Below are positions 1,866-21,029 of a stretch of DNA of 48,736 bases, piece after piece. The position numbers and the translations under genes are program-made. Within the stretch, counting starts at the first letter, position 1. Every line of letters starts with the position of its first letter. The notes under the pieces are model-generated. The model was not told the DNA's origin. It ran no database searches and was given only the letters and a program-made list of their open reading frames with translations. Where the stretch lies: positions 1 through 48,736 of IMG/VR virus record IMGVR_UViG_3300032308_000424. One strand, written 5' to 3'. Origin of the DNA: a virus.

Positions 1866-2802
1866 TCGATTTCTCCATTTTTACCAATTCAGCAGCATAT
1901 TGCTGCGGGGTTAAGCCAAACTTTTTTGCCAACGAAACTTGCGTCGGACTTAGTTGGACTCTCTTTGCACCTGTCGAACGAGTCGCAGAGGCAACAACCG
2001 TGGAAGGCTTTCTGGAGCCATCGCCGGACTTCGGCCTGCCCTGTCCACCAAAAATATCGGGGAAAGTAGCTTTCATGCGAGCATCAATGCGCTCGAAATA
2101 TTCGTCAGAGCGGGGGTCTATTCCCGAGTTCACTAGTTTTTGGTGCAGCCCTAGTGAAAAGCTGGTGAGTTCCTCGTACCCGGGAGCTCCAAACCACTGG
2201 TTTCTTGCCTGCCAGCGCAGTGTTTTATCGTCCGGTTGGGCCGCTTCGGGTACTTGTTGACTAGTTTGTACTACATCAGAATCGTATTGTAAAGGGGTTG
2301 GGCGGAAATTTTTTGCGGCTGTTGCACGCATCTTTGCATCCGCCAACTCCTCTTGAGCCGCAATGATCGCATCTGTGTCAAATGCTTCATGGGCTTCTTT
2401 AAGCTTTCTACGGGCCATAGCCAGTTCAGCTTCTGTAGCAGTTTGAATCGTGGCGGCATACTGTTGCTCACCATTATTCACGTATTGTTTAAGCTTGTTG
2501 TTTTCGGCCAACAGGTGTTGGGCCATTCTCTCAAGCTCTTGTTTCTCGCGCATTGTGGCTTCTTTGACACGGCGCTCATCGTGACGGGCATGAGTGAGTT
2601 CTTTGATGCGCTTTTTAACGCCTTCAGAGTAGTTCTCAATTTCGTCATCGGTTGGATCGGCGACTTCGCGGTCTAGGGGTTTGCGGCCTCTGTCACGTTC
2701 AGGCGTGTCGTCTACGATCTCTATTTCGACATCTGCTTCGGACGATTCCACAGGAGCGGGAGTATCGTCAAGCTCGTCTGGGAACTTGTAATGTTCAGCC
2801 AT
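1858..2802 (-). CDS. Putative head scaffolding protein
   Basis: A 314-residue highly charged protein. Residues 1-60 are strongly acidic (EADVEIEIVDDTPERD). Residues about 60-165 form a long predicted coiled coil (VKKRIKELTHARHDERRVKEATMREKQEL onward, summarised). Residues 190-250 look compact. A basic linker leads to a C-terminal helix pair near residues 283-310 (LSPTQVSLAKKFGLTPQQY). An acidic front, a central coiled coil and a basic C-terminal helix that docks on the capsid is the usual plan of podovirus scaffolding proteins, and the gene lies between portal and capsid genes where scaffolds normally sit. Start at 2802 follows GAAAGGAAAGAA. The call is from architecture and gene order; sequence alone does not prove it. 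Confidence 0.65.
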   Translation of the reverse strand: MAEHYKFPDELDDTPAPVESSEADVEIEIVDDTPERDRGRKPLDREVADPTDDEIENYSEGVKKRIKELTHARHDERRVKEATMREKQELERMAQHLLAENNKLKQYVNNGEQQYAATIQTATEAELAMARRKLKEAHEAFDTDAIIAAQEELADAKMRATAAKNFRPTPLQYDSDVVQTSQQVPEAAQPDDKTLRWQARNQWFGAPGYEELTSFSLGLHQKLVNSGIDPRSDEYFERIDARMKATFPDIFGGQGRPKSGDGSRKPSTVVASATRSTGAKRVQLSPTQVSLAKKFGLTPQQYAAELVKMEKSNG

Positions 2803-2812
2803 TTCTTTCCTT

Positions 2813-3253
2813 TCAAGCGCGGGTTAAACCGCGGGGGTCTTGCACAACAGCATCAACTTGGTCATCGTTGATGAGCCGGAACTCCTTGCCAAAGATCTTA
2901 AATCTTGTGCCGGAGTAAGTACGTACCAAGACGAAGTCGCCTTCTTTACACCATGCACCTGTGGGGAACTTGGTGGTGTCTTTGTACGCATCGGGGCCTA
3001 CACGCAATACAAACAACACCGTGGTGGCGTGTTCTTCTTGGCGCATGAACTCCGTTGGTTTATACAGGTTTGAGCCTGCAATCTTTTCGTCTGCTTCTGG
3101 AACAACGCACAGCAACTTCCAACCTGTGGGGGTCGGCAGCGCACCTGCTTTTGTTTCGCTGTCAGCGCCTTCTTCTGGCGAATCCATTTGCTGGATGTGC
3201 TTTGGTAAGACGATGTTTGGCGGCAGGACTAGTCCTGATTCAGTTTCAATCAT
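2813..3253 (-). CDS. GroES-like co-chaperonin (Cpn10) domain protein
   Basis: A 146-residue protein with a GroES/Cpn10-like core at about residues 42-141. PTGWKLLCVVPEADEKIAGS resembles the GroES opening strand (pattern I-P-L-D-R-V-V-V). A mobile-loop-like segment, SNLYKPTEFMRQEEHATT, follows, then VLFVLRVGPDAY (compare 'G-x-V-x-A-V-G'), WCKEGDFVLVRTYSGTRFKI (compare 'V-K-x-G-D-x-V-x-F') and a closing I-N-D-D-Q-V-D-A-V-V strand. A 40-residue N-terminal extension precedes the core. The role would be to cap the host GroEL and help fold virion proteins, as T4 gp31 does. I chose the ATG at 3253 rather than an in-frame ATG 48 nt upstream because it overlaps the preceding stop and gives a natural start. 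The gene sits between portal and scaffold genes, which fits a head-folding role. Confidence 0.72.
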   Translation of the reverse strand: MIETESGLVLPPNIVLPKHIQQMDSPEEGADSETKAGALPTPTGWKLLCVVPEADEKIAGSNLYKPTEFMRQEEHATTVLFVLRVGPDAYKDTTKFPTGAWCKEGDFVLVRTYSGTRFKIFGKEFRLINDDQVDAVVQDPRGLTRA

Positions 3254-3440
3254 CTGATTGTTCAACTTTCTGTAGCAGGTCAAGGAGATAACGCTCTGCA
3301 AGGGCTAGACCCGAAATAATCCCGCAGAGTTTTTGGTATTCTTCAAATGATCGACACGATCCCGCAGCCAAGTCGTCTGCGTAGTTGTTCATGTCATTGC
3401 GTATTTTGTCGCGCAATACGGATGCGAATTCTTGGATCAT
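3246..3440 (-). CDS. Small helical protein of the head operon, unknown
   Basis: A 64-residue, all-helical, acidic protein (IQEFASVLRDKIRNDMNNYADDLAAG, then FEEYQKLCGIISGLALAERYLLDLLQKVE). Its ATG overlaps the portal stop by an ATGA junction and its stop overlaps the next start by 8 nt, so it is locked into the operon by coupling on both sides. It has no motif I recognise. Small helical proteins here may be assembly helpers, but that is a guess. Confidence 0.6.
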   Translation of the reverse strand: MIQEFASVLRDKIRNDMNNYADDLAAGSCRSFEEYQKLCGIISGLALAERYLLDLLQKVEQSDD

Positions 3441-8597: not shown

Positions 8598-8614
8598 GGG
8601 GAGACTTTCTCCCC
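8598..8614 (+). repeat. 17-nt palindromic repeat, copy 1
   Basis: GGGGAGACTTTCTCCCC forms a 7-bp perfect stem with a CTT loop, extended to 8 bp by the flanking C and G. It lies 34 nt before the first early gene. Confidence 0.9.
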
Positions 8615-8648
8615 GACATTCAAACCTAGTCAACTCAAGGAGATCATC

Positions 8649-9116
8649 ATGACTAAATCAAAAGTAACTTCCTACACATACGAACAGTTTGCGGAGGGCT
8701 GTGGCAAGAACGATGCGTCTGTGCTAAACGCAAGCGACACATATCACACACAGTATGTGGCACTCGAAGCAGAGCACAGAGCAGATTGGGAACAACGCTA
8801 TGTGACGAACTACATGGTTGGTTACACATCCGTTCGTGACGGCATCAAGCCCATGACGCTTGCTCAGGCAACCAAAGCCTACGGCAAGAAACGCACAGAG
8901 CGTACTCGCACAGAAGAACTTGCGGTCAACGCAGGCAAGGCGAAGTTTCGCTATCACATCAGTCGCCCTGAGAAATCAGACGGCAAGAAGAAAGCTGTGG
9001 CTTTGCCCAAGCAACTCGTAAGCAACATCGTCAGCGAGATTATTGACGCTCAGTTGACCAAGGCACAGTTCGATGAGTTGCTTGCTCAGTTGCGTCAGTC
9101 TGTGACATTTAAATAA
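8649..9116 (+). CDS. First early gene, unknown basic protein
   Basis: A 155-residue protein, MTKSKVTSYTYEQFAEGCGK onward. I chose the ATG at 8649 because it follows CAAGGAGATCATC; an in-frame ATG further up would translate through the palindromic repeat. The middle is polar and basic (KAYGKKRTERTRTEELAVNAGKAKFRY), with a Lys-rich linker near residues 110-118 and a helical C-terminus (VSNIVSEIIDAQLTKAQFDELLAQL). No enzyme motif or membrane segment is visible. As the first gene behind the early promoter it is a candidate host-takeover or anti-defence protein, by position only. Palindrome copies flank it at 8598 and 9121. Confidence 0.6.
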   Translation: MTKSKVTSYTYEQFAEGCGKNDASVLNASDTYHTQYVALEAEHRADWEQRYVTNYMVGYTSVRDGIKPMTLAQATKAYGKKRTERTRTEELAVNAGKAKFRYHISRPEKSDGKKKAVALPKQLVSNIVSEIIDAQLTKAQFDELLAQLRQSVTFK

Positions 9117-9120
9117 TCTT

Positions 9121-9137
9121 GGGGAGACTTTCTCCCC
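9121..9137 (+). repeat. 17-nt palindromic repeat, copy 2
   Basis: A perfect GGGGAGACTTTCTCCCC, four bases after the stop codon of the first early gene. No T tract follows, so it is not a standard terminator. Confidence 0.9.
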
Positions 9138-9209
9138 GACACCGCATGAGGTTGGCTTGTGCGGTGTTTCATTCCCTGTCCAATCAATAATCTCAAGGAG
9201 TCAATAATC

Positions 9210-9458
9210 ATGTACCAACTGTTCAACCAATACCGCACCAAAGAAGTAGGTATCGTCAAGCTAGGCGCTCAAGAGTATCACCTGCAATACCACTACCCCA
9301 ACGGAGGCAGCAACTACGTTGTCTACGTCTTCAGCAAGAACCTAGCCGAGAGAGGGCGTGTATTCAGCACAGACGATGCGTTCTTCGAGTGGCTCGAAGC
9401 CCAGCCAAAACAACTAAACCTACCCTTTGGGGAGAAAGTCTCCCCATCTGCACTATAG
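9210..9458 (+). CDS. Small unknown early protein ending in a repeat-encoded peptide
   Basis: An 82-residue protein, MYQLFNQYRTKEVGIVKLGA onward, with the start at 9210 behind AAGGAGTCAATAATC. Residues 12-50 look like a small beta-rich fold (VGIVKLGAQEYHLQYHYPNGG, SNYVVYVFSKN), and residues 55-65 form a helix. The last nine residues include GEKVSP (74-79), which is encoded by the inverted copy of the 17-nt palindrome just before the stop. The repeat therefore seems to have supplied the C-terminal tail. Function unknown. Confidence 0.6.
   Translation: MYQLFNQYRTKEVGIVKLGAQEYHLQYHYPNGGSNYVVYVFSKNLAERGRVFSTDDAFFEWLEAQPKQLNLPFGEKVSPSAL
9429..9445 (-). repeat. 17-nt palindromic repeat, copy 3 (inverted, inside a gene)
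   Basis: GGGGAGAAAGTCTCCCC, the reverse complement of the other copies, lies in the 3' end of the 82-residue gene and is translated as GEKVSP. Confidence 0.9.
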
Positions 9459-9822
9459 TGCGAGATTATTGAGGCAAAAAACCAGTCACGGCCAAATGTC
9501 CGACACTACAACCCCCGAACTAAGTTTGGTGTAACCCCGCAACCCGCATGAACAGTAGCGTTCCGCAAAAACTGTCCTATCTATCTATCTATTTAATATA
9601 TATTTATATATATAGATGTGTCTATTAGGGGGTGCTCATTCTTTTTCTTTGAGACGCTTGCTTTTTTAAGTTGGCGTTAGCTTCCCAGAAAAAAGATAGA
9701 TAGCAATGACACTTTTCGTGCTAAGCTAGTATCTGTGCGGTCTCCGACCTTACACCAAACTTAGTCACAGCCCTGTAGTGTTGGACATTTGGCCACCTCT
9801 CAATTTTGGAGTCAATAATCTC
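9459..9822. other. Gene-free region holding a large inverted repeat
   Basis: No plausible gene lies here. It contains the long inverted repeat described at 9490-9794, a run of four CTAT units at 9577-9592, an AT-rich core around 9593-9628, and the leader of the next gene. Confidence 0.75.
9490..9794. repeat. Large imperfect inverted repeat (about 100-nt arms)
   Basis: The outer arms are 9490-9534 and the complement of 9750-9794. Their outer 21 nt match except for one base (GGCCAAATGTCC, A or G, ACACTACA) and their inner 16 nt (ACTAAGTTTGGTGTAA) are identical, with an unmatched block of about 8 nt between. Weaker matching continues inward: GCAAAAACTGTC against GAAAAGTGTC, and CTATCTATCT at 9581-9590 against AGATAGATAG at 9694-9703. 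The core of about 100 nt between the arms is AT-rich at its left side. Possible roles are a replication origin, a recombination or insertion relic, or a structured RNA. Confidence 0.8.
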
Positions 9823-10527
9823 ATGTACGAAACATACCTCAAACTCAGCGCAAACGAGCTTCACAACCGCTTAACCGAGCGCAACCTGCACCCAGCCGAG
9901 ATCGAACGGATCAAGACTGAGGTCTCTGAACTCAAAGAAACCCTGCGTGTCTCACGCATCACACGCACACAGCGCAAGGCCGAGTGGGACAAAGTACTGC
10001 AACCCCTGCGCTACGAGATCAATAATGCCAAAGTTGGCATGAGATACGGCGGGGAGAAAGTCTCCCCAGAACGACAACACGCCTTCAGCGAGTACATACG
10101 CATCATGGAGAAGCTGCTTGCCATGCTAGATGCCCCATACAAAGCGCTAGACCACACCCCCATACAGATCGCTCGTGACAAGGGACTGCCCAACGATGGC
10201 GAGCACTGGACTGACTGGATACCTGCAAGGGTCAAGGAGAAGGTAACCGCCCTGTTCGATGCCGTACCCGTAGCACCAAGGGGCAAGCGCAAGACGCCCT
10301 TCCAACGCACGATGCTCCCTCATCAGCACGAGACAGCCAAGGTGAGATTATTGACCAAGACAAGGAAAGAGATGGAAACGCTCGAACGCAAGATCGCAAT
10401 CAACGCATCAGACGAACGCACAAACAAACTCAAACAGATGCAAAGAGCCATCAAGATTATTGAGGCTCTGGACAAGAACGAAGCTGTACCAGCCACATGG
10501 ACAAAACTCAACATGGGGGAGGACTGA
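9823..10527 (+). CDS. Unknown coiled-coil protein with an embedded palindrome
   Basis: A 234-residue charged helical protein, MYETYLKLSANELHNRLTER onward. I chose the ATG at 9823, which has TTTGGAG about 11 nt upstream. Residues about 8-60 and 185-225 are predicted coiled coil (IERIKTEVSELKETLRVSR; RKEMETLERKIAINASDER). Residues 76-83 (GGEKVSPE) are encoded by an inverted copy of the 17-nt palindrome, placed between two helical parts where an insertion would be tolerated. A basic proline-containing linker (APRGKRKTPFQRT) lies near 168-182. No catalytic motif is visible. It follows the large inverted repeat, so a DNA-binding partner of that site is possible but unproven. Confidence 0.6.
   Translation: MYETYLKLSANELHNRLTERNLHPAEIERIKTEVSELKETLRVSRITRTQRKAEWDKVLQPLRYEINNAKVGMRYGGEKVSPERQHAFSEYIRIMEKLLAMLDAPYKALDHTPIQIARDKGLPNDGEHWTDWIPARVKEKVTALFDAVPVAPRGKRKTPFQRTMLPHQHETAKVRLLTKTRKEMETLERKIAINASDERTNKLKQMQRAIKIIEALDKNEAVPATWTKLNMGED
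10051..10067 (-). repeat. 17-nt palindromic repeat, copy 4 (inverted, inside a gene)
   Basis: A perfect GGGGAGAAAGTCTCCCC within the 234-residue gene, read in the same phase as copy 3 and giving GEKVSP. Confidence 0.9.
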
Positions 10528-10543
10528 CTATCAACATTCTTTT

Positions 10544-10560
10544 GGGGAGACTTTCTCCCC
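10544..10560 (+). repeat. 17-nt palindromic repeat, copy 5
   Basis: A perfect GGGGAGACTTTCTCCCC, 16 nt after the stop of the coiled-coil gene and before the seven-gene cassette. Confidence 0.9.
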
Positions 10561-10623
10561 GAACTGTTCGGCACTTGGGCAATGCCGCACACCATCCGCA
10601 ACCTGCCTACAAGGAGAAACAAA

Positions 10624-10914
10624 ATGAAAGTATCTGAACTAATCCAAGCCCTGAGTGAGATGCCACAGGATATGCCTGTGCATTTTTGGGCAAATGGCGA
10701 ACGCCAAACCATCATCGAAGTGCGTGATGTGGGTGACTGCGTTGATCTGTACGAAGAAGAAACACCACGCATCACAGTTTACTTTGAAGCTAACGCAGGC
10801 GCTCATCAAGTGGCGCAGTTCGACAGCGAAGAAACCTACATGGCTTGCTTCCCTGCATTAGAGCAGTTGGCCATGCTCAAGGGCTACACCATCACAGAAA
10901 GCAAAGGAAAATGA
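10624..10914 (+). CDS. Small acidic unknown protein, first of a seven-gene cassette
   Basis: A 96-residue acidic protein, MKVSELIQALSEMPQDMPVH onward, with the start at 10624 behind CAAGGAGAAACAAA. The opening MKVSELIQALSxMPQDxPV followed by a beta-rich part (TIIEVRDVGDCVDLYEEETPRITVYF) is a pattern I have seen in small phage and bacterial proteins of unknown role. A helix near residues 70-90 ends the protein. It starts a tightly packed run of seven genes linked by ATGA or TAATG junctions. Confidence 0.6.
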   Translation: MKVSELIQALSEMPQDMPVHFWANGERQTIIEVRDVGDCVDLYEEETPRITVYFEANAGAHQVAQFDSEETYMACFPALEQLAMLKGYTITESKGK

Positions 10915-10915
10915 A

Positions 10916-11158
10916 ATGAAACTAACAGTAGATACCTTAGACAACGAAGTCAAGAGTGCCGTCATCAATGTCGGCAAAGACAACGGGTACATCGAGGCTT
11001 TCGTGTGGGAAGGTGTTATGTGCCTCTATGTGTACAACAAAGAAGGTGATGTAGTGCATAACTATGCCATCACAACCGAGGACTTGCGTGCAAAAGGCGG
11101 TTGCACTACGCCTAAGTTCGAGCCTGCACAGGAAAACTACGAAGGAGAAGCATCATGA
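10916..11158 (+). CDS. Small unknown early protein
   Basis: An 80-residue protein, MKLTVDTLDNEVKSAVINVG onward. It follows the previous stop almost at once. The middle looks like a beta sheet (GYIEAFVWEGVMCLYVYNKEGDVVHNYAI), then a polar C-terminus with many acidic residues. No motif is recognised. Its stop overlaps the next ATG (ATGA), so expression is coupled. Confidence 0.55.
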   Translation: MKLTVDTLDNEVKSAVINVGKDNGYIEAFVWEGVMCLYVYNKEGDVVHNYAITTEDLRAKGGCTTPKFEPAQENYEGEAS

Positions 11159-11445
11159 CTTATGCCGAGCAAGCGAAAGCGTGGATACAAAACTCACCAT
11201 ATGTGGACATCCCTGTTGGGCGGTTCACGCTCAGATTCATGCTGACTATCGACAGAGATTGGGGCTGGGTTTGGGAGCACATGACATGGCTCCTCGCAGG
11301 AAAAGAATACTGGGAATCGCCAGAAGAGTTGTACATCGGTAATATTTACAACGACATGAATGCAGACCTGCACGACATGGAGTTCATCGATGAGTTGTTA
11401 GAAGCTATGAAGAACAAACCATTTAACCAAGGAGAAAGCAAATGA
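11155..11445 (+). CDS. Small Trp-rich unknown early protein
   Basis: A 96-residue protein with six Trp residues concentrated in the first two thirds (WIQ, DWGWVWEHMTW, EYW) and an acidic C-terminal half (NDMNADLHDMEFIDELLEAM). The start overlaps the preceding stop by ATGA. The Trp/Asp-rich make-up resembles small phage proteins that bind a host partner, but no function can be read from the sequence. Confidence 0.55.
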   Translation: MTYAEQAKAWIQNSPYVDIPVGRFTLRFMLTIDRDWGWVWEHMTWLLAGKEYWESPEELYIGNIYNDMNADLHDMEFIDELLEAMKNKPFNQGESK

Positions 11446-11669
11446 CAAAAGCAAAACACAAGACCAACATCCAGTTGGTCACAGACCTCATGTCGCACTC
11501 ACAGCAGGGCGCTCTCATGCAGGCGTTCATCATCGAGGCGATATCCAAGTACTCAGAACAAACCAAAGTCTCACCGCCTTGGTCTACCGACAACACATTC
11601 ATCAGCGAAGCCGCATGGCGTGCGTGTGCTGACGAGGCGCTCGAAGCAATCAACAACAGGAGTAAATGA
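11442..11669 (+). CDS. Small helical unknown early protein
   Basis: A 75-residue, mainly helical protein (MTKAKHKTNIQLVTDLMSHS onward; ALMQAFIIEAISKYSEQ; AAWRACADEALEAINNRSK). The start overlaps the previous stop by ATGA. Its last residues AINNRSK nearly repeat the end of the next protein (AIDNRSK), because both 3' ends carry the AACAGGAGTAA sequence that serves the following gene as ribosome binding site. Confidence 0.55.
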   Translation: MTKAKHKTNIQLVTDLMSHSQQGALMQAFIIEAISKYSEQTKVSPPWSTDNTFISEAAWRACADEALEAINNRSK

Positions 11670-11670
11670 G

Positions 11671-11835
11671 ATGAAATTAGCTATTGAACTAGCGTACGAG
11701 TTCGTACGCCAAGGCATATGGGATGAGGTGGACTTGAAAGAATACTTATTCTCTGAGTGTCACAGGATATTCCGACACGCTTGGAGTGCGGGCGCTAAGT
11801 CTGAACGCGAAGCAATCGATAACAGGAGTAAGTAA
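11671..11835 (+). CDS. Small unknown early protein
   Basis: A 54-residue protein, MKLAIELAYEFVRQGIWDEV onward. The ATG at 11671 follows ACAGGAGTAAATGAG. It is short and helical with aromatic residues, and ends EREAIDNRSK, like its upstream neighbour. The two short genes may share a duplicated 3' end. No function is recognised. Confidence 0.5.
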   Translation: MKLAIELAYEFVRQGIWDEVDLKEYLFSECHRIFRHAWSAGAKSEREAIDNRSK

Positions 11836-12023
11836 TGAAATCATGTAGGAACTGTGCGTTATCAACGCACACAGGCAATTGGAACGTAGGGCTTGCTTGT
11901 TTCAAAGGGCAGTTAGTTCAACGTGTGTCTATGAGCACAGAGGAGAACCAAGCGATGGACGCCCATCTACGGACAGTAGCAGATCGTTGCGAAGATTATC
12001 AACCAGAAGGAGAGAGCAAATGA
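11835..12023 (+). CDS. Small Cys-containing protein, possible zinc finger
   Basis: A 62-residue protein with Cys at positions 4, 7, 22 and 52 (MKSCRNCALSTHTGNWNVGL, ACFKGQ, ADRCEDYQ). A CxxC start followed by two further Cys suggests a small zinc-binding fold. The start overlaps the previous stop (TAATG) and its own stop overlaps the next ATG. A DNA- or protein-binding role is plausible; nothing more can be claimed. Confidence 0.5.
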   Translation: MKSCRNCALSTHTGNWNVGLACFKGQLVQRVSMSTEENQAMDAHLRTVADRCEDYQPEGESK

Positions 12024-12259
12024 GAGTAGTAAAAATCCGTGTGTTCGGCACATACAAACAGCCGTTCAACAATGCGTTCAAAGCAGACTGTATTGTCCTG
12101 CCTGCTGAGTTGTCAGACTCGATGCGTGATGAGGTGCTACGCAAGCATGACGACTTGTTCTATGTGTTCACCTCTGGTGATCCCATCGTGGGTGAGCACC
12201 ACACCTTCGAGGTGTATTCGTTCGATGTAATTAGTGAAGAGGAGGTAGCCCTCGCCTGA
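12020..12259 (+). CDS. Small unknown early protein, last of the seven-gene cassette
   Basis: A 79-residue protein, MRVVKIRVFGTYKQPFNNAF onward, with two beta-rich stretches (VVKIRVFGTY; HHTFEVYSFDVIS) around a helix (SDSMRDEVLRKHDD). The ATG at 12020 overlaps the preceding stop. A hairpin, CGCCTG at 12253-12258 with CAGGCG at 12264-12269, spans its stop codon, and the palindromic repeat follows 31 nt later. Function unknown. Confidence 0.55.
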   Translation: MRVVKIRVFGTYKQPFNNAFKADCIVLPAELSDSMRDEVLRKHDDLFYVFTSGDPIVGEHHTFEVYSFDVISEEEVALA

Positions 12260-12290
12260 GCAACAGGCGTGTTCGTTAGTGTGTTAGTTC

Positions 12291-12307
12291 GGGGAGACTT
12301 TCTCCCC
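12291..12307 (+). repeat. 17-nt palindromic repeat, copy 6
   Basis: A perfect GGGGAGACTTTCTCCCC between the small-gene cassette and the amidoligase gene. Confidence 0.9.
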
Positions 12308-12335
12308 ATTCTTTTTTATAACTCAAGGAGAATGT

Positions 12336-14414
12336 ATGTTTCAATTTACAAAGTTCGTAGTGGTTGACTCCGTTGGCCGCACCACAGGTATGCTGCTTGT
12401 GTCGTTCAGCAACAAGTACACTGTGTACAACGCCAGTCGGCGTCGTGTTATGACTGATGTGATGCGAGCCACCCGTGGCGTTGATCCTGTCAAGATTATC
12501 AATGACGCGCAGTTTGATATCTGGTTTCATGGCAGTGGCTATCGTATGAGCCCTGCTCATGGGGTCGAGACGCTGTCGTATCCCGATGCGCTTCTGTACA
12601 CCAATGACCGCTACGATATCAACCAGATGATGCGTGGTGTGCTTCGGCCTGCCTGTGCTTCAGATGGGCGTATCCATCCAGTTGATCGCCGTCTCATCAA
12701 TCAGCGTGTCGAGGTCGTCGTTGATAATTACATAACCAAGCAAGGCGGTACTGTGCCAGCCATCGAGCCACACGCTAAGTTCAAGGGCGGGTATTACTAC
12801 CAGTCTGCTACCTACAAGCTTGCTCGTAAGTCGTTCAAGCAGTTCGGCCATCTGGTTGCTCGTGCCAAGGCAGGTGATGAGTCTGTCTCTGACGATCGGT
12901 TGCGTTCAGCGTTCTACGATCTTGACAATCGCTACCACGACTTCGATACGCATATCGGTAGTGCGTATGCTGCCATCGAAGACTTCTATCTTGGCATTGT
13001 GCACTGCGACTGCGGTCACTACGAGAGCGATGAGAACACACACGATGTGCGTAACGATACATGGTGTGAGTCGTGCTTCGATGATGACGCTGTGTTCTGC
13101 GAGGATGAGAACGAGTACTGGCCTCGTGACGACTGCTACTACTCTGAGGCTCGTGATGCGTACTACTCGTACGATCGTGATGGCGAGAGTGATGATGACG
13201 ATGACGATGATGACGACCGCAGTCAACCGATCATGTCGTACTCAACCAATGTGCTCGATGTTATTGGCAATGAGTCTGGCATCAAGTCGTCTCACTTCGG
13301 TGAGTTCACGATGGGCATCGAGCTTGAGATGACTTCGGGCGATGACTCAAGCTACGAGGCCGCTGAGTCTGTGCGTAGCCGTTTGGGTTCCGCATACTGC
13401 ATCATCAAGAGTGACGGCTCGCTTCCATCCAACGGCTTCGAGGTTGTGACTTCTCCGCATGGTCTTGCCACGCACATCGAGAAGTTCAAGACTTGGGACA
13501 TTGACCCAGCCTATCGTGCATGGAATACAGGCAAGTGCGGTATGCACGTACACATCGACTCTCGTGCGTTCACTCAGATGACGCTTGGCAAGTTCCTGAT
13601 GTTCATCAACAGCTCTGCCAATGTCGACTTCATTCGCAAGATTGCAGGTCGTCATCCATCTGTCGATGAGCAAGCACGTAGCTACTGCGCCGCTGAGAAT
13701 CAGTCAATACTTGTCAACCCCAAGACTGCGGTCAAGGGTAAGTCTGGTGAGCGCTATCGCATGGTCAATATGTGCAACCTCGGCGCTCGTGAGGCTATGC
13801 GCTTGGGACTCAGCATGGACAACAGCTACAACGGCAGGTACAACACTGTCGAGCTTCGCATCTTCCGTGCCTCGCTCAAGAAGGAGCGTCTGCTTGCACA
13901 GATCGAGTTCACTCATGCGTCTGTCATGTTCTGCCGTGTCGCATCGTGGCGTGATCTCAACGGCACATCGTTCGTCAAGTGGCTCAAGACTGTGGCAGGT
14001 CAGTACCCTGCGCTAGTCAAGTGGTATGGCGTGCGTGCTGTGCATGGCGCATCCAAGCAGCCTTCTGCCCCTGCCGAGCTTACTTGTACTGACGCTGTGC
14101 CTCCCGTTGTTGCCGCCACAAGCCGACGCCCTCATGGGTGTGACCACGACTATCGGATGGAGATAGCGCATGAGGATGGCCGTGGTATACGTGACTACGC
14201 TAGCCGACACGGGCTGTACTTCACTTACTTCAGGGTGATGGGCTTGGTGCTAGCTGTGTTCCCGTACGACGGCAACGATCAGCAGATCGGTGACGAGGAT
14301 GTGATCTACGTTCGTGACAACGATGTGTGGCGTCTGCAAGAAGATGACTTCAACCCATTGGTTCAGGGTCAAAGCCCTGTGCCTGCCGATGTTAATGGCA
14401 ATGCTTCCGTTTAA
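12336..14414 (+). CDS. Amidoligase-family protein (glutamine-synthetase-like fold) with a Cys-rich insert
   Basis: A 692-residue protein with a C-terminal amidoligase domain at about residues 320-560. The fold's hallmarks are visible: GIELEM with Glu329 and Glu331 (metal binding), SDGSLPSNGFEVVTSP with Asp360 and Glu369, CGMHVHID with His404 and His406, and VELRIFR with Glu507 and Arg509. Such enzymes use ATP to form an amide bond between a carboxyl and an amine. Residues 1-210 have no recognised domain. Residues 223-267 hold C224, C226, C244, C247, C255 and C267, a likely zinc-ribbon pair, followed by nine consecutive Asp residues at 286-294. The start has AAGGAG upstream. The next gene is a class II glutamine amidotransferase, which could supply ammonia from glutamine. 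The ligase substrate is unknown. Confidence 0.82.
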   Translation: MFQFTKFVVVDSVGRTTGMLLVSFSNKYTVYNASRRRVMTDVMRATRGVDPVKIINDAQFDIWFHGSGYRMSPAHGVETLSYPDALLYTNDRYDINQMMRGVLRPACASDGRIHPVDRRLINQRVEVVVDNYITKQGGTVPAIEPHAKFKGGYYYQSATYKLARKSFKQFGHLVARAKAGDESVSDDRLRSAFYDLDNRYHDFDTHIGSAYAAIEDFYLGIVHCDCGHYESDENTHDVRNDTWCESCFDDDAVFCEDENEYWPRDDCYYSEARDAYYSYDRDGESDDDDDDDDDRSQPIMSYSTNVLDVIGNESGIKSSHFGEFTMGIELEMTSGDDSSYEAAESVRSRLGSAYCIIKSDGSLPSNGFEVVTSPHGLATHIEKFKTWDIDPAYRAWNTGKCGMHVHIDSRAFTQMTLGKFLMFINSSANVDFIRKIAGRHPSVDEQARSYCAAENQSILVNPKTAVKGKSGERYRMVNMCNLGAREAMRLGLSMDNSYNGRYNTVELRIFRASLKKERLLAQIEFTHASVMFCRVASWRDLNGTSFVKWLKTVAGQYPALVKWYGVRAVHGASKQPSAPAELTCTDAVPPVVAATSRRPHGCDHDYRMEIAHEDGRGIRDYASRHGLYFTYFRVMGLVLAVFPYDGNDQQIGDEDVIYVRDNDVWRLQEDDFNPLVQGQSPVPADVNGNASV

Positions 14415-14447
14415 TTCAATCAATTTTTATACCTCAAGGAGTTTATT

Positions 14448-15554
14448 ATGTGTCTCATCATTACTGGTCAGTCTTCCAAAGTTCGTTCAACCTTGCTCGA
14501 CACGCATGGGTTACTCAGCGACATCTTCACATCCAATCCTGACGGCATTGGGTTTATGTATGGCACAGCCAAGGGACTCAAGGTCACCAAGACCTTGCCC
14601 AAGAATCTCGGCGATGCTACTGCATTCATTCAGCGCTTGCCTCAAGACGATCGTGAGATTGCTATTCACTTCCGCTGGACTACACACGGCAAGACCGATA
14701 TGCTCAACTGCCATCCCTATGATGTGATCCCTGGCTTCATCGCCATGATGCACAACGGCGTACTGCATACGGGCAATGCCGCTGACAAGTCCAAGTCTGA
14801 TACGTGGCACTTCATCAAGGACTACTTGCACAGCGCTGTGGCTTCTGCCCCTGACCTTGTGTACGACAAGGGCTTCGTGTCTATGCTGGAGGAGTTCATC
14901 GGCAACAATCGCTTCGTGTTCATGAATGGCGAGGGTCGTATGCAACACGTTAACTTCGATCAGGGTATCGAGCACGATGATCTGTGGTTCAGCAATACCT
15001 ATGCTTGGACTCCATCGCGTCTTATACCCAGCTACAAAAGTGCGACTGCGCTCAAGTCGTACAACTACAGCTCGTACGCCAACGGCTACATGGATGACTA
15101 CGACGAGATGCACGACTACAACGCCAGCTTCGGCATCTATCCCCGTAGTGTCAGCGCACACAGCGCCAACTACGACGAGACAGCGTATGACTTTCCTGAT
15201 GACGAGGATGGTTTCGTTCGCCCTGAGTCTGATGATCTTGCCGTGGCTCTGACCGAGTGCGACATTGAGAGCGTTGAGATATGGCTTGAGACTATGCCTG
15301 CGTACACCATCACCACAATACTGCACTGCTTTGAGCCTACGCCACTTAGCTACACACATCGTGACGACTTGTGCGTTGCCGAGCAGGGCATCTACGATAT
15401 GTTGATGGAGGGTGATGCGTCTGGCCTCATCAGCTATGCGACCAAGTCGTATACGGCATCGGGCATGATCGCCGAGGTCATCTGCTACTACCTGTCATGG
15501 GATGTGCGTAAGCCCATGCCCATCAAGCCAACCTTGCCTGCACTGTTGACTTGA
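14448..15554 (+). CDS. Class II glutamine amidotransferase domain protein
   Basis: A 368-residue protein with an N-terminal Ntn-hydrolase glutaminase domain. Cys2 (MCLIITG) would become the N-terminal nucleophile after Met removal. NPDGIGFMYGT (residues 30-40), HFRWTTHG (74-81), NCHPY (87-91) and MMHNG (100-104) match the GATase II signature of GlmS/PurF-type domains (C-, HxRWATHG, NxHP, HNG). The expected activity is hydrolysis of glutamine to glutamate and ammonia. Residues about 200-280 are an unusual Tyr/Asp/Ser-rich region (YMDDYDEMHDYNA), and the C-terminal 90 residues are of unknown fold. No synthetase domain is fused, so the partner is probably the amidoligase encoded 33 nt upstream. 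AAGGAG precedes the ATG. Confidence 0.85.
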   Translation: MCLIITGQSSKVRSTLLDTHGLLSDIFTSNPDGIGFMYGTAKGLKVTKTLPKNLGDATAFIQRLPQDDREIAIHFRWTTHGKTDMLNCHPYDVIPGFIAMMHNGVLHTGNAADKSKSDTWHFIKDYLHSAVASAPDLVYDKGFVSMLEEFIGNNRFVFMNGEGRMQHVNFDQGIEHDDLWFSNTYAWTPSRLIPSYKSATALKSYNYSSYANGYMDDYDEMHDYNASFGIYPRSVSAHSANYDETAYDFPDDEDGFVRPESDDLAVALTECDIESVEIWLETMPAYTITTILHCFEPTPLSYTHRDDLCVAEQGIYDMLMEGDASGLISYATKSYTASGMIAEVICYYLSWDVRKPMPIKPTLPALLT

Positions 15555-15562
15555 TTCGTAGC

Positions 15563-15579
15563 GGGGAGACTTTCTCCCC
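15563..15579 (+). repeat. 17-nt palindromic repeat, copy 7
   Basis: A perfect GGGGAGACTTTCTCCCC with flanking C and G extending the stem to 8 bp, 8 nt after the amidotransferase stop. Together with copy 6 it brackets the amidoligase cassette in direct orientation. Confidence 0.9.
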
Positions 15580-15605
15580 GCATTTTTAACCAAAGGAGAA
15601 GTGAA

Positions 15606-15776
15606 ATGAAATACAGAGTACAGATAGTTATGTCCTACTGGCAAACAATAGAGGTCGAAGCCGATAGCAGTGCCGATGCTGCAAACAAAGCGTTCGATGA
15701 GTTTGATATCACCAAGGCACGCATGGGTGAGGGTGAGGCGTACGACACCGAGTTAATAGAAGGAGAAACCAAATGA
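15606..15776 (+). CDS. Small unknown protein
   Basis: A 56-residue protein, MKYRVQIVMSYWQTIEVEAD onward (then SSADAANKAFDEFDI). The ATG at 15606 follows AAGGAGAAGTGAA. The pattern of a short beta hairpin followed by an A-A-N-K-A-F helix recalls small phage proteins in which V-E-A-x-S-x-x-D-A follows two strands. Its stop overlaps the next ATG. Function unknown. Confidence 0.6.
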   Translation: MKYRVQIVMSYWQTIEVEADSSADAANKAFDEFDITKARMGEGEAYDTELIEGETK

Positions 15777-16003
15777 AAGTATCTGACACCACAGCGCTAC
15801 ACCTGCGCTGTATCGAGGCAGACCTGCGGGACTACCTCATGAACCCTGCCGAGTACCGAGTAACGCACCTTGAGGACATCCATGTCTTGTTGCTTGAGGT
15901 CATGCTCACACTTGGCGTAACACCAACAGAAGGAGAGGAGGAAAACATCGACATCGACTTAGATGGCGGGCTTAGTGCAACCAACGAACAGGGAGATGAA
16001 TAA
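15773..16003 (+). CDS. Small acidic unknown protein
   Basis: A 76-residue protein, MKVSDTTALHLRCIEADLRD onward, with a helical N-terminal half and a very acidic C-terminus (EGEEENIDIDLDGG). It is linked to both neighbours by overlapping stop/start codons. No motif is recognised. Confidence 0.55.
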   Translation: MKVSDTTALHLRCIEADLRDYLMNPAEYRVTHLEDIHVLLLEVMLTLGVTPTEGEEENIDIDLDGGLSATNEQGDE

Positions 16004-16095
16004 TGCTGACTGGATGGGAAAAATTAGAAAGAGTAGTACTTTTGTTGGCGGTAATTGTACTTATCGCCGATCTTTTTTATTGGAGACCCTATTGA
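16003..16095 (+). CDS. Very short predicted membrane protein
   Basis: A 30-residue protein, MLTGWEKLERVVLLLAVIVL, then IADLFYWRPY. Residues 10-27 form one hydrophobic segment with aromatic residues at the exit. GGGAGATGAATA precedes the ATG, which overlaps the previous stop (TAATG). The coupling and the ribosome binding site support real translation despite the size. A small membrane effector is possible; it is far from the lysozyme gene, so holin is not implied. Confidence 0.5.
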   Translation: MLTGWEKLERVVLLLAVIVLIADLFYWRPY

Positions 16096-16123
16096 CTTAT
16101 GTCCAACACTAGACAAATAATAT
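16092..16123 (+). promoter_or_regulatory. Possible second early promoter with embedded operator
   Basis: TTGACT at 16092-16097 and TAATAT at 16118-16123 resemble -35 and -10 boxes, but the 20-nt spacing is long for sigma70. The operator-like 16-mer lies between them. The site precedes the membrane-protein and replication genes. Confidence 0.4.
16100..16115. promoter_or_regulatory. Operator-like 16-mer, copy 2
   Basis: TGTCCAACACTAGACA matches the copies at 8313 and 23543. Its first 12 bases also occur on the minus strand at 9776-9787, inside the large inverted repeat. Confidence 0.6.
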
Positions 16124-16142
16124 CAACCCCAAGGAGAAAATA

Positions 16143-16358
16143 ATGCACACACCTTACGATACGGGCAAGGTCAAGATTGGCTTGCTCTACACACCCCCAC
16201 CCCCTGTCGCTACGCCCGAGGAAACTTGGGTTCAATCCGTCTTGCTTGGCGACAAGCAAGGCATGGATGAGCTTACGCTCACAACAATACAGTCCATCGG
16301 GCTGATTGCTTTCATTGTTATCGTCATGCTACTAACTGGAGGAATCTCAAATGACTGA
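16143..16358 (+). CDS. Small predicted membrane protein
   Basis: A 71-residue protein with a polar, proline-rich N-terminal half (LYTPPPPVATPEETW) and one C-terminal hydrophobic segment at about residues 49-66 (IQSIGLIAFIVIVMLLTGG). The ATG follows AAGGAGAAAATA. It could be a tail-anchored inner-membrane protein. It is the second small membrane protein in a row, separated from the first by the operator-containing spacer. Function unknown. Confidence 0.55.
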   Translation: MHTPYDTGKVKIGLLYTPPPPVATPEETWVQSVLLGDKQGMDELTLTTIQSIGLIAFIVIVMLLTGGISND

Positions 16359-16965
16359 TATGCAAACCGCCCTTAAATCCGCTCTTAGCCAAACCTTGCA
16401 AGAGTGGGATGATGACGGGGAGACTTCCTCCCCATCTTCTACTATCAACAACTCTGTATCCACACCTTCTCAAGCACCAACCATGACAAACCTATTCAAC
16501 GTAACCAACAACGTCTCACGTTCAACCTTCAACTACATCAAAGACCACCCGGGCTCCACTCGCCAAGAAATCATCGTTGCCCTTGAGCACATAGGCTTTA
16601 CTAAATCATCAGTAGCTGCTTTGATCTCGCAGATGAACAAGGCTAAGATGATTCACAAGACCAATGACCTTTGGTACGTAGATGTGCCTGAGTACATACC
16701 GATCAAGAACACTACCTACGTCAAGAAGAAAGCCAAGGTAGAGAAGAAGACAACAGGCGGCACAGGCATTGGTGCGCTCTTGAAGGCTAAGATAGAAGCC
16801 GCACCTACACCCGATCGTCTTGAGATACCTGCAAACATCCCGACACAACGAGCAACTATGACGACCATCGTGCGCAACCGCACACCCGAAGAGATCATTG
16901 GCAACATGACTGTGTATCAGGCGCGTGAGTTGTATATGCACTTGAAGCAGATGTTTGGAGGTTAA
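16351..16965 (+). CDS. Winged-helix DNA-binding-like protein with an embedded palindrome
   Basis: A 204-residue protein. Residues about 55-110 look like a winged helix-turn-helix (STFNYIKDHPGSTRQEIIVA, then GFTKSSVAALISQMNKAKMI and a wing, HKTNDLWYV), as in MarR-like or replication-initiation regulators. A basic linker (YVKKKAKVEKKTTGG) and a helical C-terminus follow. Residues 23-28 (GETSSP) are encoded by a slightly diverged copy of the 17-nt palindrome, in the flexible N-terminal region. The ATG lies behind GGAGG and overlaps the previous gene by 8 nt. It may regulate early transcription or act in replication; this is inference from fold only. Confidence 0.6.
   Translation: MTDMQTALKSALSQTLQEWDDDGETSSPSSTINNSVSTPSQAPTMTNLFNVTNNVSRSTFNYIKDHPGSTRQEIIVALEHIGFTKSSVAALISQMNKAKMIHKTNDLWYVDVPEYIPIKNTTYVKKKAKVEKKTTGGTGIGALLKAKIEAAPTPDRLEIPANIPTQRATMTTIVRNRTPEEIIGNMTVYQARELYMHLKQMFGG
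16417..16433 (+). repeat. 17-nt palindromic repeat, copy 8 (one base diverged, inside a gene)
   Basis: GGGGAGACTTCCTCCCC differs from the consensus at one position. It lies in the winged-helix gene and is translated GETSSP in the same phase as the other coding copies. Confidence 0.8.
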
Positions 16966-17845: not shown

Positions 17846-18134
17846 ATCAAAAGTAAAAGCAAACGTACGGAAACTACTTGATGAACTCAAAATCTACCAC
17901 TTCATGCCCCCTGCTAATGGCTTCGGCCGAGCGGGTATACCTGACATCATTGGCTGCATGGACGGACACTTCATTGCCATCGAATGCAAGGCCGGCAAGG
18001 GCACAACCACCGCTCTTCAAGACAGGGAACTCAACGCCATCAGCAACCACGGCGGCACAACTTTTATTGCCAACGAGCACAACCTTGACGAGTTGAAGCT
18101 GTTACTCGGGAGCATACGCTATGTTAGAAGCTGA
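17829..18134 (+). CDS. VRR-NUC domain nuclease
   Basis: A 101-residue protein that is essentially a stand-alone VRR-NUC domain of the PD-(D/E)XK nuclease superfamily. The motif reads GFGRAGIPDIIGCMDGHFIA, then IECKAGKG, giving Asp39, Glu52 and Lys54 as the catalytic set, with Gln63 after it. Single-domain VRR-NUC proteins are frequent in phages and act on branched or structured DNA. The start at 17829 (MASTPESK) follows GGAGAGCGCT. It lies just ahead of the DNA polymerase, so a role in replication or recombination intermediates is likely. Confidence 0.88.
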   Translation: MASTPESKVKANVRKLLDELKIYHFMPPANGFGRAGIPDIIGCMDGHFIAIECKAGKGTTTALQDRELNAISNHGGTTFIANEHNLDELKLLLGSIRYVRS

Positions 18135-18411
18135 CTACCCCATGTCTGAAGCGGAGCTTCACCGCAGGGTGACGGCCATGTCAGACGAAGAGCAAGCCCA
18201 TTTCAAGCTACTGATCCACAAACTGGTGATGTGCTACGGAGAGGGCAAAGCACAAGGCGTGGTCATCGTTGGCCGCGCCCAAGACCGACTAGCAGGAGTC
18301 GTTACGCTGAACTGTAACGAGATGGAAGCGTCGCAACTCATGTTGGCGGCAAACGATTTTTTCGGCTTTCTAAACGTCCTTGGCGCACCGCCCAAGGAAA
18401 ACTTTAATTAG
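18121..18411 (+). CDS. Small unknown protein of the replication module
   Basis: A 96-residue protein starting MLEADYPMSEAELHRRVTAM; a later ATG at 18142 is also possible. It has a helical N-terminal half and a beta-rich part (AQGVVIVGRAQDRLAGVVTL) followed by a helix (EASQLMLAANDFFGFLNVLG). The pattern with an internal V-V-I-V strand is seen in small phage proteins without known role. It overlaps the nuclease gene by 14 nt. Confidence 0.5.
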   Translation: MLEADYPMSEAELHRRVTAMSDEEQAHFKLLIHKLVMCYGEGKAQGVVIVGRAQDRLAGVVTLNCNEMEASQLMLAANDFFGFLNVLGAPPKENFN

Positions 18412-18419
18412 GAGAAGCA

Positions 18420-18746
18420 ATGACTGACTGGACACCCGAAGAAGAGGAAGCGTTCAACGAAGTTGAAAAGAATAGCAACCTTGGCAAGCAGATACTGCGT
18501 GACATGGGACAGCCTTATTATTTTGACCCATCCAACGGAACGATAAGCAAGGACAAGAACGACCCGCGGTTTACACCGCTTGGTCAAGTGTGGCCTGTGT
18601 CTATCAAGCGTGAGTGGGTGGGGCTGACGGATGTAGAGATCGTAGACATTATGGATGTGGAGTTAACTACGCAAAACACTGAACACTTTGCACTCTGCCA
18701 AGCCATTGAAGCAAAACTAAAGGAGAAGAATGAGCGCACCATATGA
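18420..18746 (+). CDS. Small acidic unknown protein before the polymerase
   Basis: A 108-residue acidic protein, MTDWTPEEEEAFNEVEKNSN onward, with AGGAGAAGCA before the ATG. Residues 60-85 (REWVGLTDVEIVDIMDVELT) and the C-terminal helix ending in KLKEKNE resemble short replication-region proteins of environmental phages. The stop overlaps the polymerase start by 17 nt, so they are probably translated together. Function unknown. Confidence 0.5.
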   Translation: MTDWTPEEEEAFNEVEKNSNLGKQILRDMGQPYYFDPSNGTISKDKNDPRFTPLGQVWPVSIKREWVGLTDVEIVDIMDVELTTQNTEHFALCQAIEAKLKEKNERTI

Positions 18747-20715
18747 CAGGATCTTATCGATCGACTTCGAGACCTACTGGGACACCAAGATAGGTTACAC
18801 ACTAACCAAAATGACAACCGAGGAGTACATACGCCATGACTTATTTCACGCGTTTGGATGCTGCATTCATGAGTTCGGAGCTGACAGCCCAATTACGTGG
18901 GTTGGAGGAGAGAGACTACGTGAATACTTTTCTGGAATTGACTGGGGACGAACCGCAGTGCTTGCGCACAACGCACAGTTCGATGTATCCATTATGGAGT
19001 GGCGATACGGTGTATCACCCTGCTTCATCTTCGACACGCTATCAATGGCGCGAGCTCTCCGAGGCGTTGAGGTTGGCAACAGTCTCGCCAAACTTGCAAT
19101 CGATTTTGGTCTTCCCGCCAAAGGGACAGCCGTATACAGTACCAATGGTGTGGCCAAGCTGGACGAGGTCATGGAATCTGAGCTTGCAGACTATTGCAAA
19201 CACGACGTATATCTATGCGAGCGAATCTTTGCACGCTTGGTCAATGGATACCCTGCGAAAGAACTACGGCTTATAGACATGACACTCAAGATGTACACCC
19301 GTGCATGCCTTGAGCTTGACCCCAACATGCTGACCGATGCCATACTAGAGGAGAAAGAAACCCGTGAAGCACTATTACAGAAGCTCAACGTGGACGAAAC
19401 TGCACTTGCGTCGAACCCACAGTTTGCAGCACTACTTAAAACCCTCGGTGTGGTTCCCCCAACAAAAGTCAGTAAGACTACCGGGAAAGAAACACTTGCG
19501 CTGGCTAAGAATGATGCCCTCTTTCAGGCGTTACTCAACGGTGAACGTGAGGACGTTGCCCTTCTTTGTGAAGCGCGTCTTAGGGTTAAGTCGACCACCG
19601 AGCGCACAAGGGCTCAGAGATTCCTCGACATTAGTAAACGTGGAGCCCTACCAGTACCTCTCTCGTATTACGGTGCGCAGACTGGCAGGTGGACAGCAAG
19701 CAAAGGCTCGGCCATCAACATGCAAAACCTCAAGCGAGGCTCGTTCCTACGCAAAGCGATTATGGCTCCCGCTGGCCACCAACTCGTCGTTGGAGATCTA
19801 TCGCAGATTGAGCCGCGAGTCCTTGCGTGGCTTTCGGACTACACAGACATGCTGGACATCTTCAGGGCCGGTGGTGACCCTTATGCCGCGTTCGGTTCGC
19901 AGATGTTCAACATACCCGGACTTAGTAAGGAGTCTCACCCTGACCTTAGGCAGTCTGCAAAGAGCGCACTCCTTGGCTGTGGATACGGTCTTGGCTGGGC
20001 GGCTTTTGCTTCACAGCTTCTCACGGGATTCCTTGGGGCGCCACCACAGCGTTACGACTTGGCCTTTGCAAAGAAGCTTGGCGTTACTCAACAGGCAGCG
20101 CAGAAGTTCTTGGAATGGGAAGTCAATGTCGAGAAGCTCCAATCCATACCGCACACCTGCACAACCAAGGAGCTAGTCATTCATTGTCTTGCGGCCAAGG
20201 CCATCATCGACAAGTACAGGGCTACGGCTACGCCTGTGGTGGACTTCTGGAACCTGCAGACCGAGCTTATCCACGAGTCGCTTTACAAGGGCAAAGAGTA
20301 CAAACACAAGTGCCTGACGTACCGCAAGGGGGAGATTGAGCTGCCCTCGGGCATGAAGCTGTTGTATCCTTACCTACAAATCAGACGCCATACAGACGAG
20401 AAAACAAAAAAAGAGCAGGTCGAGTGGACTTACGGCGAAAATCGTACTAAGATATACGCAGGAAAAATAACCAACAATGTCACGCAGGGCGTAGCGAGAT
20501 GCGTGATGACTGATGGGATGGTACGTACTGCAAAGAGATACTTTGTGGCGGGAACAGTACATGACGAGCAGATCGTTGTTGTTCCTGATGCAGAGGTGTC
20601 TGAAGCTAAGACTTGGGTCTTGGCTCAGATGACTATGGAGCCGCCTTACATGCCGGGCATTCCATTAGACGCTGACGGTGGCGCACATCGTCGTTATGGG
20701 TTAGCAAAAAACTAG
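18730..20715 (+). CDS. Family A DNA polymerase with proofreading exonuclease
   Basis: A 661-residue replicative polymerase. The N-terminal 3'-5' exonuclease (about residues 1-175) keeps its acidic residues: Asp12 and Glu14 (SIDFETYWD), Asp85 (AHNAQFD) and Tyr155/Asp159 (YCKHD). The polymerase domain shows motif A VVGDLSQIEPR (Asp356), motif B RQSAKSALLGCGYG (Arg407, Lys411, Tyr419) and motif C GTVHDEQIVV (His611, Asp612, Glu613), plus the TGRWTASKGSAINMQN segment at about 318-333. No 5'-3' exonuclease is present, which is usual for phage PolA-type enzymes. The ATG follows AAGGAGAAGA. Motif A has Leu where many relatives have Tyr (DYSQIE), a conservative variant. Confidence 0.95.
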   Translation: MSAPYDRILSIDFETYWDTKIGYTLTKMTTEEYIRHDLFHAFGCCIHEFGADSPITWVGGERLREYFSGIDWGRTAVLAHNAQFDVSIMEWRYGVSPCFIFDTLSMARALRGVEVGNSLAKLAIDFGLPAKGTAVYSTNGVAKLDEVMESELADYCKHDVYLCERIFARLVNGYPAKELRLIDMTLKMYTRACLELDPNMLTDAILEEKETREALLQKLNVDETALASNPQFAALLKTLGVVPPTKVSKTTGKETLALAKNDALFQALLNGEREDVALLCEARLRVKSTTERTRAQRFLDISKRGALPVPLSYYGAQTGRWTASKGSAINMQNLKRGSFLRKAIMAPAGHQLVVGDLSQIEPRVLAWLSDYTDMLDIFRAGGDPYAAFGSQMFNIPGLSKESHPDLRQSAKSALLGCGYGLGWAAFASQLLTGFLGAPPQRYDLAFAKKLGVTQQAAQKFLEWEVNVEKLQSIPHTCTTKELVIHCLAAKAIIDKYRATATPVVDFWNLQTELIHESLYKGKEYKHKCLTYRKGEIELPSGMKLLYPYLQIRRHTDEKTKKEQVEWTYGENRTKIYAGKITNNVTQGVARCVMTDGMVRTAKRYFVAGTVHDEQIVVVPDAEVSEAKTWVLAQMTMEPPYMPGIPLDADGGAHRRYGLAKN

Positions 20716-20726
20716 GAGAAGCAGTA

Positions 20727-21029
20727 TTGAAATTACCAACTAAAGTACGAGTCGGCAGGCGATGGTACAGCGTGGAGGTTGTCGAAGCCATGATCGAGAA
20801 GAACTACGTGGGGCGTGTGCACTATGACGCGCAACATATTCGGATCGGCAAGCGCAACAACCATACAGGCAAGCCATTCACGAAGCAAGAAGTCGGCGAT
20901 ACCTTTTGGCATGAGCTTACGCATGCAATCTTGCATGACATGGACAGCCCTTTGTATCGTGACGAGCGCTTTGTAGCAGCATTTGCAACACGGCTTAACA
21001 AAGCCATTAACACAGCGAAGTTCGAATGA
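20727..21029 (+). CDS. Small HExxH metallopeptidase-like protein
   Basis: A 100-residue protein with an HExxH zinc motif at residues 62-66 (TFWHELTHAILHDM). It starts at a TTG codon (20727) behind AGGAGAAGCAGTA, the same ribosome binding site as its neighbours. The context 'F-W-H-E-L-T-H-A-I-L' is typical of small phage metallopeptidase-like proteins related to the ImmA/IrrE or SprT-like groups. Downstream, RDERFVAAFATRLNKAI is the usual C-terminal helix. The target is unknown; proteolysis has not been shown for most of these small proteins. Its stop overlaps the next start by ATGA. Confidence 0.7.
   Translation: MKLPTKVRVGRRWYSVEVVEAMIEKNYVGRVHYDAQHIRIGKRNNHTGKPFTKQEVGDTFWHELTHAILHDMDSPLYRDERFVAAFATRLNKAINTAKFE

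Follow-up and report, generated by a model that had tools for sequence, protein, structure and literature searches.

A new lineage of the paired amidoligase and class II glutamine amidotransferase genes in a metagenomic virus record

Analysis of the 48,736-base virus record IMGVR_UViG_3300032308_000424 (positions 1 to 48,736; hereafter the window, to which all coordinates refer) revealed two adjacent genes, one for an amidoligase (AL) and one for a class II glutamine amidotransferase (GAT). They add a new lineage to a gene pair that is known and widespread, occurs in many phages and some gut bacteria, and is functionally unexplained. The sequence families, the intact active sites, the strict pairing, the purifying selection and the hairpin-bordered two-gene unit support the reading that AL and GAT probably form one two-subunit, glutamine-dependent, ATP-driven amidating enzyme. 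Together they very probably take nitrogen from glutamine onto an acid group during infection. The two open reading frames (ORFs), of 692 and 368 amino acids (aa), lie on one strand and are separated by 33 bp.

12336..14414, plus strand: AL gene (PF12224, 28.8 bits; PHROG 16683; 51 viral relatives)
14448..15554, plus strand: GAT gene (motifs and homology; same-position homologues above the GATase_6 cut-off)

Pairing of the two genes

An earlier reading of the DNA (the sequence-only reading) had placed an amidoligase gene beside a GATase II gene at this locus. Both genes are real, at these positions, and they are strictly paired. Within the close family every locus with sufficient downstream sequence has GAT after AL, and in loci fetched through GAT it is preceded by AL. 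To test the pairing without a bias from GAT, bacterial genomes and viral contigs were searched with a broader alignment of the AL domain, and each locus was chosen by that domain only. Of the loci with enough sequence, all 67 viral ones and 55 of the 57 bacterial ones have GAT close to AL, in nearly every case directly downstream and on the same strand. All 137 GAT profile matches fell within 1.5 kb of AL, and the other 721 kb gave none. Because the loci cannot be treated as independent, they were also counted by AL cluster (60% identity): the pair occurred in 31 of the 32 clusters, the remaining one being a short locus that ends 660 bases past AL. Genes flanking the pair are far less conserved than the two themselves. 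The pairing of AL and GAT is near-obligate. A scan of bacterial genomes with GAT as query found nothing, whereas the broader AL-domain alignment did find loci; among plasmids only four remote records were found (three from Clostridioides difficile and one from Mycobacterium).

Multiple copies were also observed. Butyricicoccus pullicaecorum and Agathobaculum butyriciproducens carry three to four AL copies per genome, each with an adjoining GAT (loci L215, L219, L221 and L230; L244, L251 and L252). Acinetobacter phage 313 (locus L181) has two pairs, at 2247-5160 and 17846-20819, one of them a few genes away from genes for ribose-phosphate pyrophosphokinase and nicotinamide phosphoribosyltransferase.

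Family membership and active sites

The Pfam profile Amidoligase_2 (PF12224) matched AL at aa 312-528 with 28.8 bits (gathering cut-off 22) and matched 23 of 23 close relatives scanned. AL also matched PHROG 16683 (E 4.5e-19) and the amidoligase-named PHROGs 2443 and 7469, and a viral-contig scan found 51 relatives with 59-94% identity. Judged by its sequence, AL is clearly a member of the Amidoligase_2 family, in agreement with the proposal that it is an amidoligase of glutamine-synthetase type. Seven residues, E329, E331, D360, H404, H406, E506 and R508 (ExE, D, HxH and ExR), were invariant across 54 AL sequences. The sequence-only reading had named the first five correctly and had placed the last two one position too far, at Glu507 and Arg509. 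The metal-binding glutamates are not lost in close relatives, and the predicted assignment stands. The catalytic columns are also kept in remote homologues from phages ctgrD200, MEP401, Marvin, AR1086-1, MT839723 and Acinetobacter phage 313; remote phage homologues with the catalytic residues of both proteins show 20-38% identity.

13290..14045, plus strand: AL catalytic domain, predicted to be glutamine-synthetase-like, about aa 319-570, with E329, E331, D360, H404, H406, E506 and R508 (Pfam)
14046..14411, plus strand: AL C-terminal extension, aa 571-692, little conserved

Structure prediction had been suggested earlier as a check of the AL fold. The best viral structure match in BFVD was an annotated phage amidoligase (E 1.5e-6), from a model that is poor in the catalytic part. 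A fold search of AL against the PDB gave no significant match, and a profile search of solved structures gave unrelated chains only. In VIA-align all rows were below Z 6; those for glutamine synthetase and YbdK had Z 2.9-3.4, the YbdK rows covering AL aa 319-558 at an insignificant Z of 2.9-3.2.

Analysis of GAT revealed C2, H74-F-R76-W-T-T79-H80-G81, N87-C-H-P90, H102-N-G104 and D118, all invariant in the close family and remaining so over 53 sequences. A stand-alone GATase II with Cys2, HFRWTTHG, NCHP and HNG had been proposed; these motifs are confirmed and D118 is added to them. Most of the motif residues, C2 included, are kept in remote homologues such as LUZ24 gp19. The last 170 residues of GAT evolve faster.

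14448..15032, plus strand: GAT glutaminase domain of N-terminal nucleophile (Ntn) type, aa 1-195, with C2, R76, H80, G81, N103, G104 and D118

None of the Pfam profiles GATase_4, GATase_6 and GATase_7 matched GAT above cut-off, the scores being 13.5 bits (GATase_6) and 11.2 bits against cut-offs of 27 and 23. A glmS model matched aa 70-107 (E 4.6e-6), and profiles of solved structures matched GlmS and PurF weakly (E 0.036-0.18). A curated Pfam cut-off is a detection threshold and not a defining chemical feature. In Oscillibacter, Butyricicoccus and Alistipes the homologues that occupy this position behind AL score 46-51 bits with GATase_6, above its cut-off, and membership of GAT is secure for this reason. 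Through this chain of homology, the low Pfam scores are better read as divergence than as non-membership. GAT has no synthase domain of its own and therefore needs a partner.

A different division of labour between the two proteins was considered. Glutamine-synthetase-like ligases include amine and amino-acid ligases, for example glutamate-cysteine ligases, and the YbdK alignments above, insignificant as they are, point the same way. In that case AL could tag a protein or metabolite with an amino acid or peptide; GAT would act as an Ntn hydrolase, trimming or supplying the donor, and not as a source of ammonia. We regard this as unlikely: the glutaminase motifs of GAT (RWTTHG, HNG and SD) are complete, and its strict pairing with an ATP-dependent ligase best fits ammonia supply.

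Domain architecture, selection and genome setting

AL contains six cysteines, at positions 224, 226, 244, 247, 255 and 267, as the sequence-only reading had noted in describing a six-Cys, probably zinc-binding segment. Comparison with relatives narrowed this description. C255 is cysteine in 19 of 30 close relatives and C267 in 11 of 30, and a set of six conserved cysteines was rejected on this variability. Across 54 relatives the only invariant ligand-like positions are C226, H228, C244 and C247 (CxH...CxxC), which suggests one four-ligand zinc site. The Asp run at aa 286-294 is an acidic stretch whose length varies among relatives, and it was rejected as a functional signature on that ground.

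12336..12998, plus strand: AL N-terminal region, aa 1-221, fast-evolving, with a possible role in target recognition (dN/dS; partial match in distant relatives)
12999..13142, plus strand: probable zinc site, aa 222-269, C226-x-H228 ... C244-x-x-C247 (invariance; dN/dS; Cys-rich segments elsewhere)
13191..13217, plus strand: nine-Asp tract, aa 286-294, a length-variable acidic linker (alignment of relatives)

Contrary to the suggestion of the sequence-only reading, neither the Cys segment nor the nine-Asp tract distinguishes AL from described members. A Cys-rich segment, often followed by an acidic run, stands ahead of the amidoligase in ctgrD200, Marvin gp105, MT839723, Acinetobacter phage 313 and most bacterial relatives. 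In the AL-based survey at least two CxxC motifs directly before the amidoligase were found in 59 of 65 bacterial and 59 of 79 viral loci. The N-terminus of an Alistipes AL (locus L198, 5515-6732) matches Pfam LIM with 24.4 bits (cut-off 22.9), which is unusual for a bacterial enzyme. LUZ24 gp18, the AL of that phage, is without the Cys segment, and at least two AL architectures therefore exist.

Pairwise ratios of nonsynonymous to synonymous substitution (dN/dS) were lowest in the GAT domain (0.03-0.11) and the zinc segment (0.08-0.13); the AL domain gave 0.14-0.24, and AL aa 1-220 had the highest values, 0.37-0.58. The decay of the two genes into inactive accessory genes, to which the sub-cut-off Pfam matches of GAT might point, is extremely improbable and was rejected: the genes are full-length in dozens of relatives, the active sites are invariant and dN/dS in the catalytic parts is 0.03-0.24. 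The N-terminal ratio is about two to four times that of the catalytic core, so that AL may possibly consist of a constant enzymatic core and a variable N-terminus that could choose the target; relaxed constraint may give a similar pattern. Profile matches of distant relatives to AL start mostly at aa 95-160. The N-terminal region was modelled mostly at a predicted local distance difference test (pLDDT) of 70-89 and had no convincing match among solved structures.

The two genes are bordered by the palindrome GGGGAGACTTTCTCCCC followed by a T-run, present both upstream of AL and downstream of GAT.

12291..12307, plus strand: left border hairpin, perfect, GGGGAGA-CTT-TCTCCCC then a T-run, 28 bp before the AL start, terminator-like
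15563..15579, plus strand: right border hairpin, GGGGAGACTTTCTCCCC then a T-run, 8 bp past the GAT stop, terminator-like

Seven exact copies and one mismatched copy of GGGGAGACTTTCTCCCC occur on both strands of the early region (8598-16433) against 0.01 expected, and some of them fall inside ORFs. Most relatives checked keep hairpins at both border places, with stem sequences that differ yet are self-complementary. This fits terminators or RNA-processing hairpins that would delimit a two-gene unit.

On the plus strand a block of small early genes is followed by AL, GAT, further small genes and the replication genes (DNA polymerase, exonuclease, helicase and primase). The minus strand carries the portal, the terminase and other structural genes, including one (28503-39326) for a 3607-aa protein that may be a giant component of the virion; PHROGs 18222 and 9854, of unknown function, match its last 500 residues. 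The nearest named terminases (49-52% identity) belong to Pelagibacter phages, including HTVC027P and HTVC023P, to phage 023Pt_psg01 and to phage DSL-LC04. None of these phages is among the records that carry AL, from which we infer that AL and GAT are an accessory module. Judged from relatives of about 60 kb, the window may miss up to about a fifth of the genome. Searches of the window gave no match to an Rfam RNA and no tRNA. An inverted repeat with 133-nt arms (9462-9594 and 9690-9822), 71% complementary and 95 nt apart, lies in a region without a clear gene.

Bacterial copies of the pair lie near genes for ParB-like, DUF3768, DUF4942, DUF6878, resolvase and TraG-like proteins. Their proximity suits an accessory function of mobile elements and speaks mildly against a role tied to one cell-wall type. 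Such neighbours, the position of the pair ahead of the replication genes and the high N-terminal dN/dS are also what might be expected of a counter-defence or takeover enzyme that amidates a host defence or regulatory protein early in infection, the variable N-terminal region choosing the target. We consider this function quite unlikely. The faster N-terminus may be relaxed constraint only, and there was no match in the PADLOC defence library, which covers defence and not counter-defence.

Proposed reaction and comparison with known systems

For the two-subunit amidating enzyme favoured here, the following reaction is proposed from what is known of the two families. Cys2 of GAT, exposed once Met1 is removed, would free ammonia from glutamine. 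The E/E/D/H/E/R site of AL would bind ATP and metal and activate a substrate carboxylate as an acyl-phosphate, which transferred ammonia would attack to give the amide. Docking of GAT or recognition of the target is the probable role of the zinc site and of the variable N-terminal region of AL. The general idea of the sequence-only reading, amidation or amide ligation of some target, thus holds up as a prediction. As to the target, a protein or peptide carboxylate and a cell-wall precursor carboxylate are equally conceivable, and a small metabolite is somewhat less so.

Two points weigh against this enzyme. The models are poor (pLDDT below 50 in the catalytic part of AL in an AlphaFold model built from the close-family alignment, mean 47.7 for GAT), so that neither the fold nor an ammonia channel could be inspected in them. 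The AL of Clostridioides phage AR1086-1 is without the Cys segment and the next gene (336 aa) is no obvious GAT; AL may therefore sometimes act without a GAT partner.

Associations of amidoligases with GATases were reportedly described from comparative genomics by Iyer, Aravind and colleagues in 2009. Related gene cassettes have reportedly been noted in LUZ24, phiEco32 and mycobacteriophage Marvin. The pair itself is on record in the OM43 phages MEP401 and MEP402 and in over 30 related viral genomes (PMC10580990), and an association of amidoligase with GAT is described in LUZ24-like phages (PMC3890496) and in phage tf (PMC3517423). A peptidoglycan cassette has been proposed for PSA-HP1 and relatives (PMC5498523), with superinfection exclusion or preparation of lysis as proposed roles for such phage sets (PMC10580990, PMC11945000). 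Our literature search found no paper that tests a substrate for the phage pair and no test of the cell-wall or superinfection hypothesis; the published statements found are predictions. In phages and in some bacterial loci the pair is common, and its two genes go strictly together. To identify what it makes would close a gap in the biochemistry of phage and host and might bring to light a new amidation of proteins or cell wall. The window adds to this a well-populated lineage of metagenomic viral contigs.

The cassette of LUZ24, phiEco32 and PSA-HP1 resembles the window in having an amidoligase (with GAT in LUZ24 and PSA-HP1) upstream of or among replication genes. In LUZ24 a COOH-NH2 ligase, AL, GAT, a RimK-like ATP-grasp protein and a gamma-glutamyl cyclotransferase stand together, and the cassette differs from the window in the COOH-NH2 ligase and the cyclotransferase, perhaps also in the ATP-grasp protein, as well as in an AL (LUZ24) without the Cys segment. 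The COOH-NH2 ligase (PF14395) was absent from the window, a possibly incomplete genome, and from six relatives of 54-68 kb, and was found by the same search in LUZ24 and phiEco32. The cyclotransferase (PF06094) was absent from all ten records searched, with control genomes positive. The ATP-grasp profile PF08443 had no match in the window, a profile that also misses the annotated RimK-like gene of LUZ24. In the absence of the COOH-NH2 ligase and the cyclotransferase, the window phage carries a minimal two-gene form, and this narrows what AL and GAT must do alone.

AL and GAT also stand in the LUZ24 cassette, and sets of this kind have been proposed in print to modify the cell wall (PMC5498523, PMC11945000, PMC10580990); the window pair might accordingly be a reduced cell-wall cassette that amidates muropeptide carboxylates and so blocks superinfection or prepares lysis. 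This alternative is doubtful. The COOH-NH2 ligase and the cyclotransferase are missing, LUZ24 AL lacks the Cys segment, and a function in a single cell wall is less obvious for a pair that mycobacteriophages share and that stands next to mobile-element genes in bacterial loci. We tentatively suggest a more specific form of the two-subunit amidating enzyme, itself open to considerable doubt: a self-contained machine for amidating macromolecules, found across mobile elements and distinct from the LUZ24-type cassette, in which a constant glutaminase and zinc-and-ligase core would be combined with an N-terminal ligase region that can be exchanged, selects its target among host proteins or in the envelope, and varies from host to host.

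Among named phages, ctgrD200 (an uncultured podovirus, MW202733) and the Methylophilales phages MEP401 and MEP402 resemble the window in having GAT directly behind AL, close to where the early region starts, in the same catalytic residues and in Cys pairs ahead of AL. They differ in their N-terminal regions, in the lack of a long Asp tract and in an identity of only 26-33%. Mycobacteriophage Marvin gp105-gp106 are likewise an adjoining AL, with a Cys-rich N-terminus and an acidic run, and GAT, but the AL is shorter, the sequence remote and the phage of another type. Bacterial Amidoligase_2 and GATase_6 pairs were found in Clostridia (Oscillibacter, Butyricicoccus, Agathobaculum and Ruminococcus), in Alistipes and in a Rhizobiales genome. 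They share the two-gene order and the Cys-rich segment ahead of AL, one AL passing Pfam LIM, and differ in a shorter AL (about 370 aa), as a rule six CxxC motifs and, in some, a place beside mobile-element genes. The folds of MurT and GatD differ, as far as known, from those expected here for both subunits, MurT being of Mur-ligase type and GatD not of class II. The MurT-GatD complex, which amidates lipid II (PMC3267633), is nevertheless also a two-subunit glutamine-dependent carboxylate amidase, and it stands beside the pair of the window as an analogy and not as a member of the same family.

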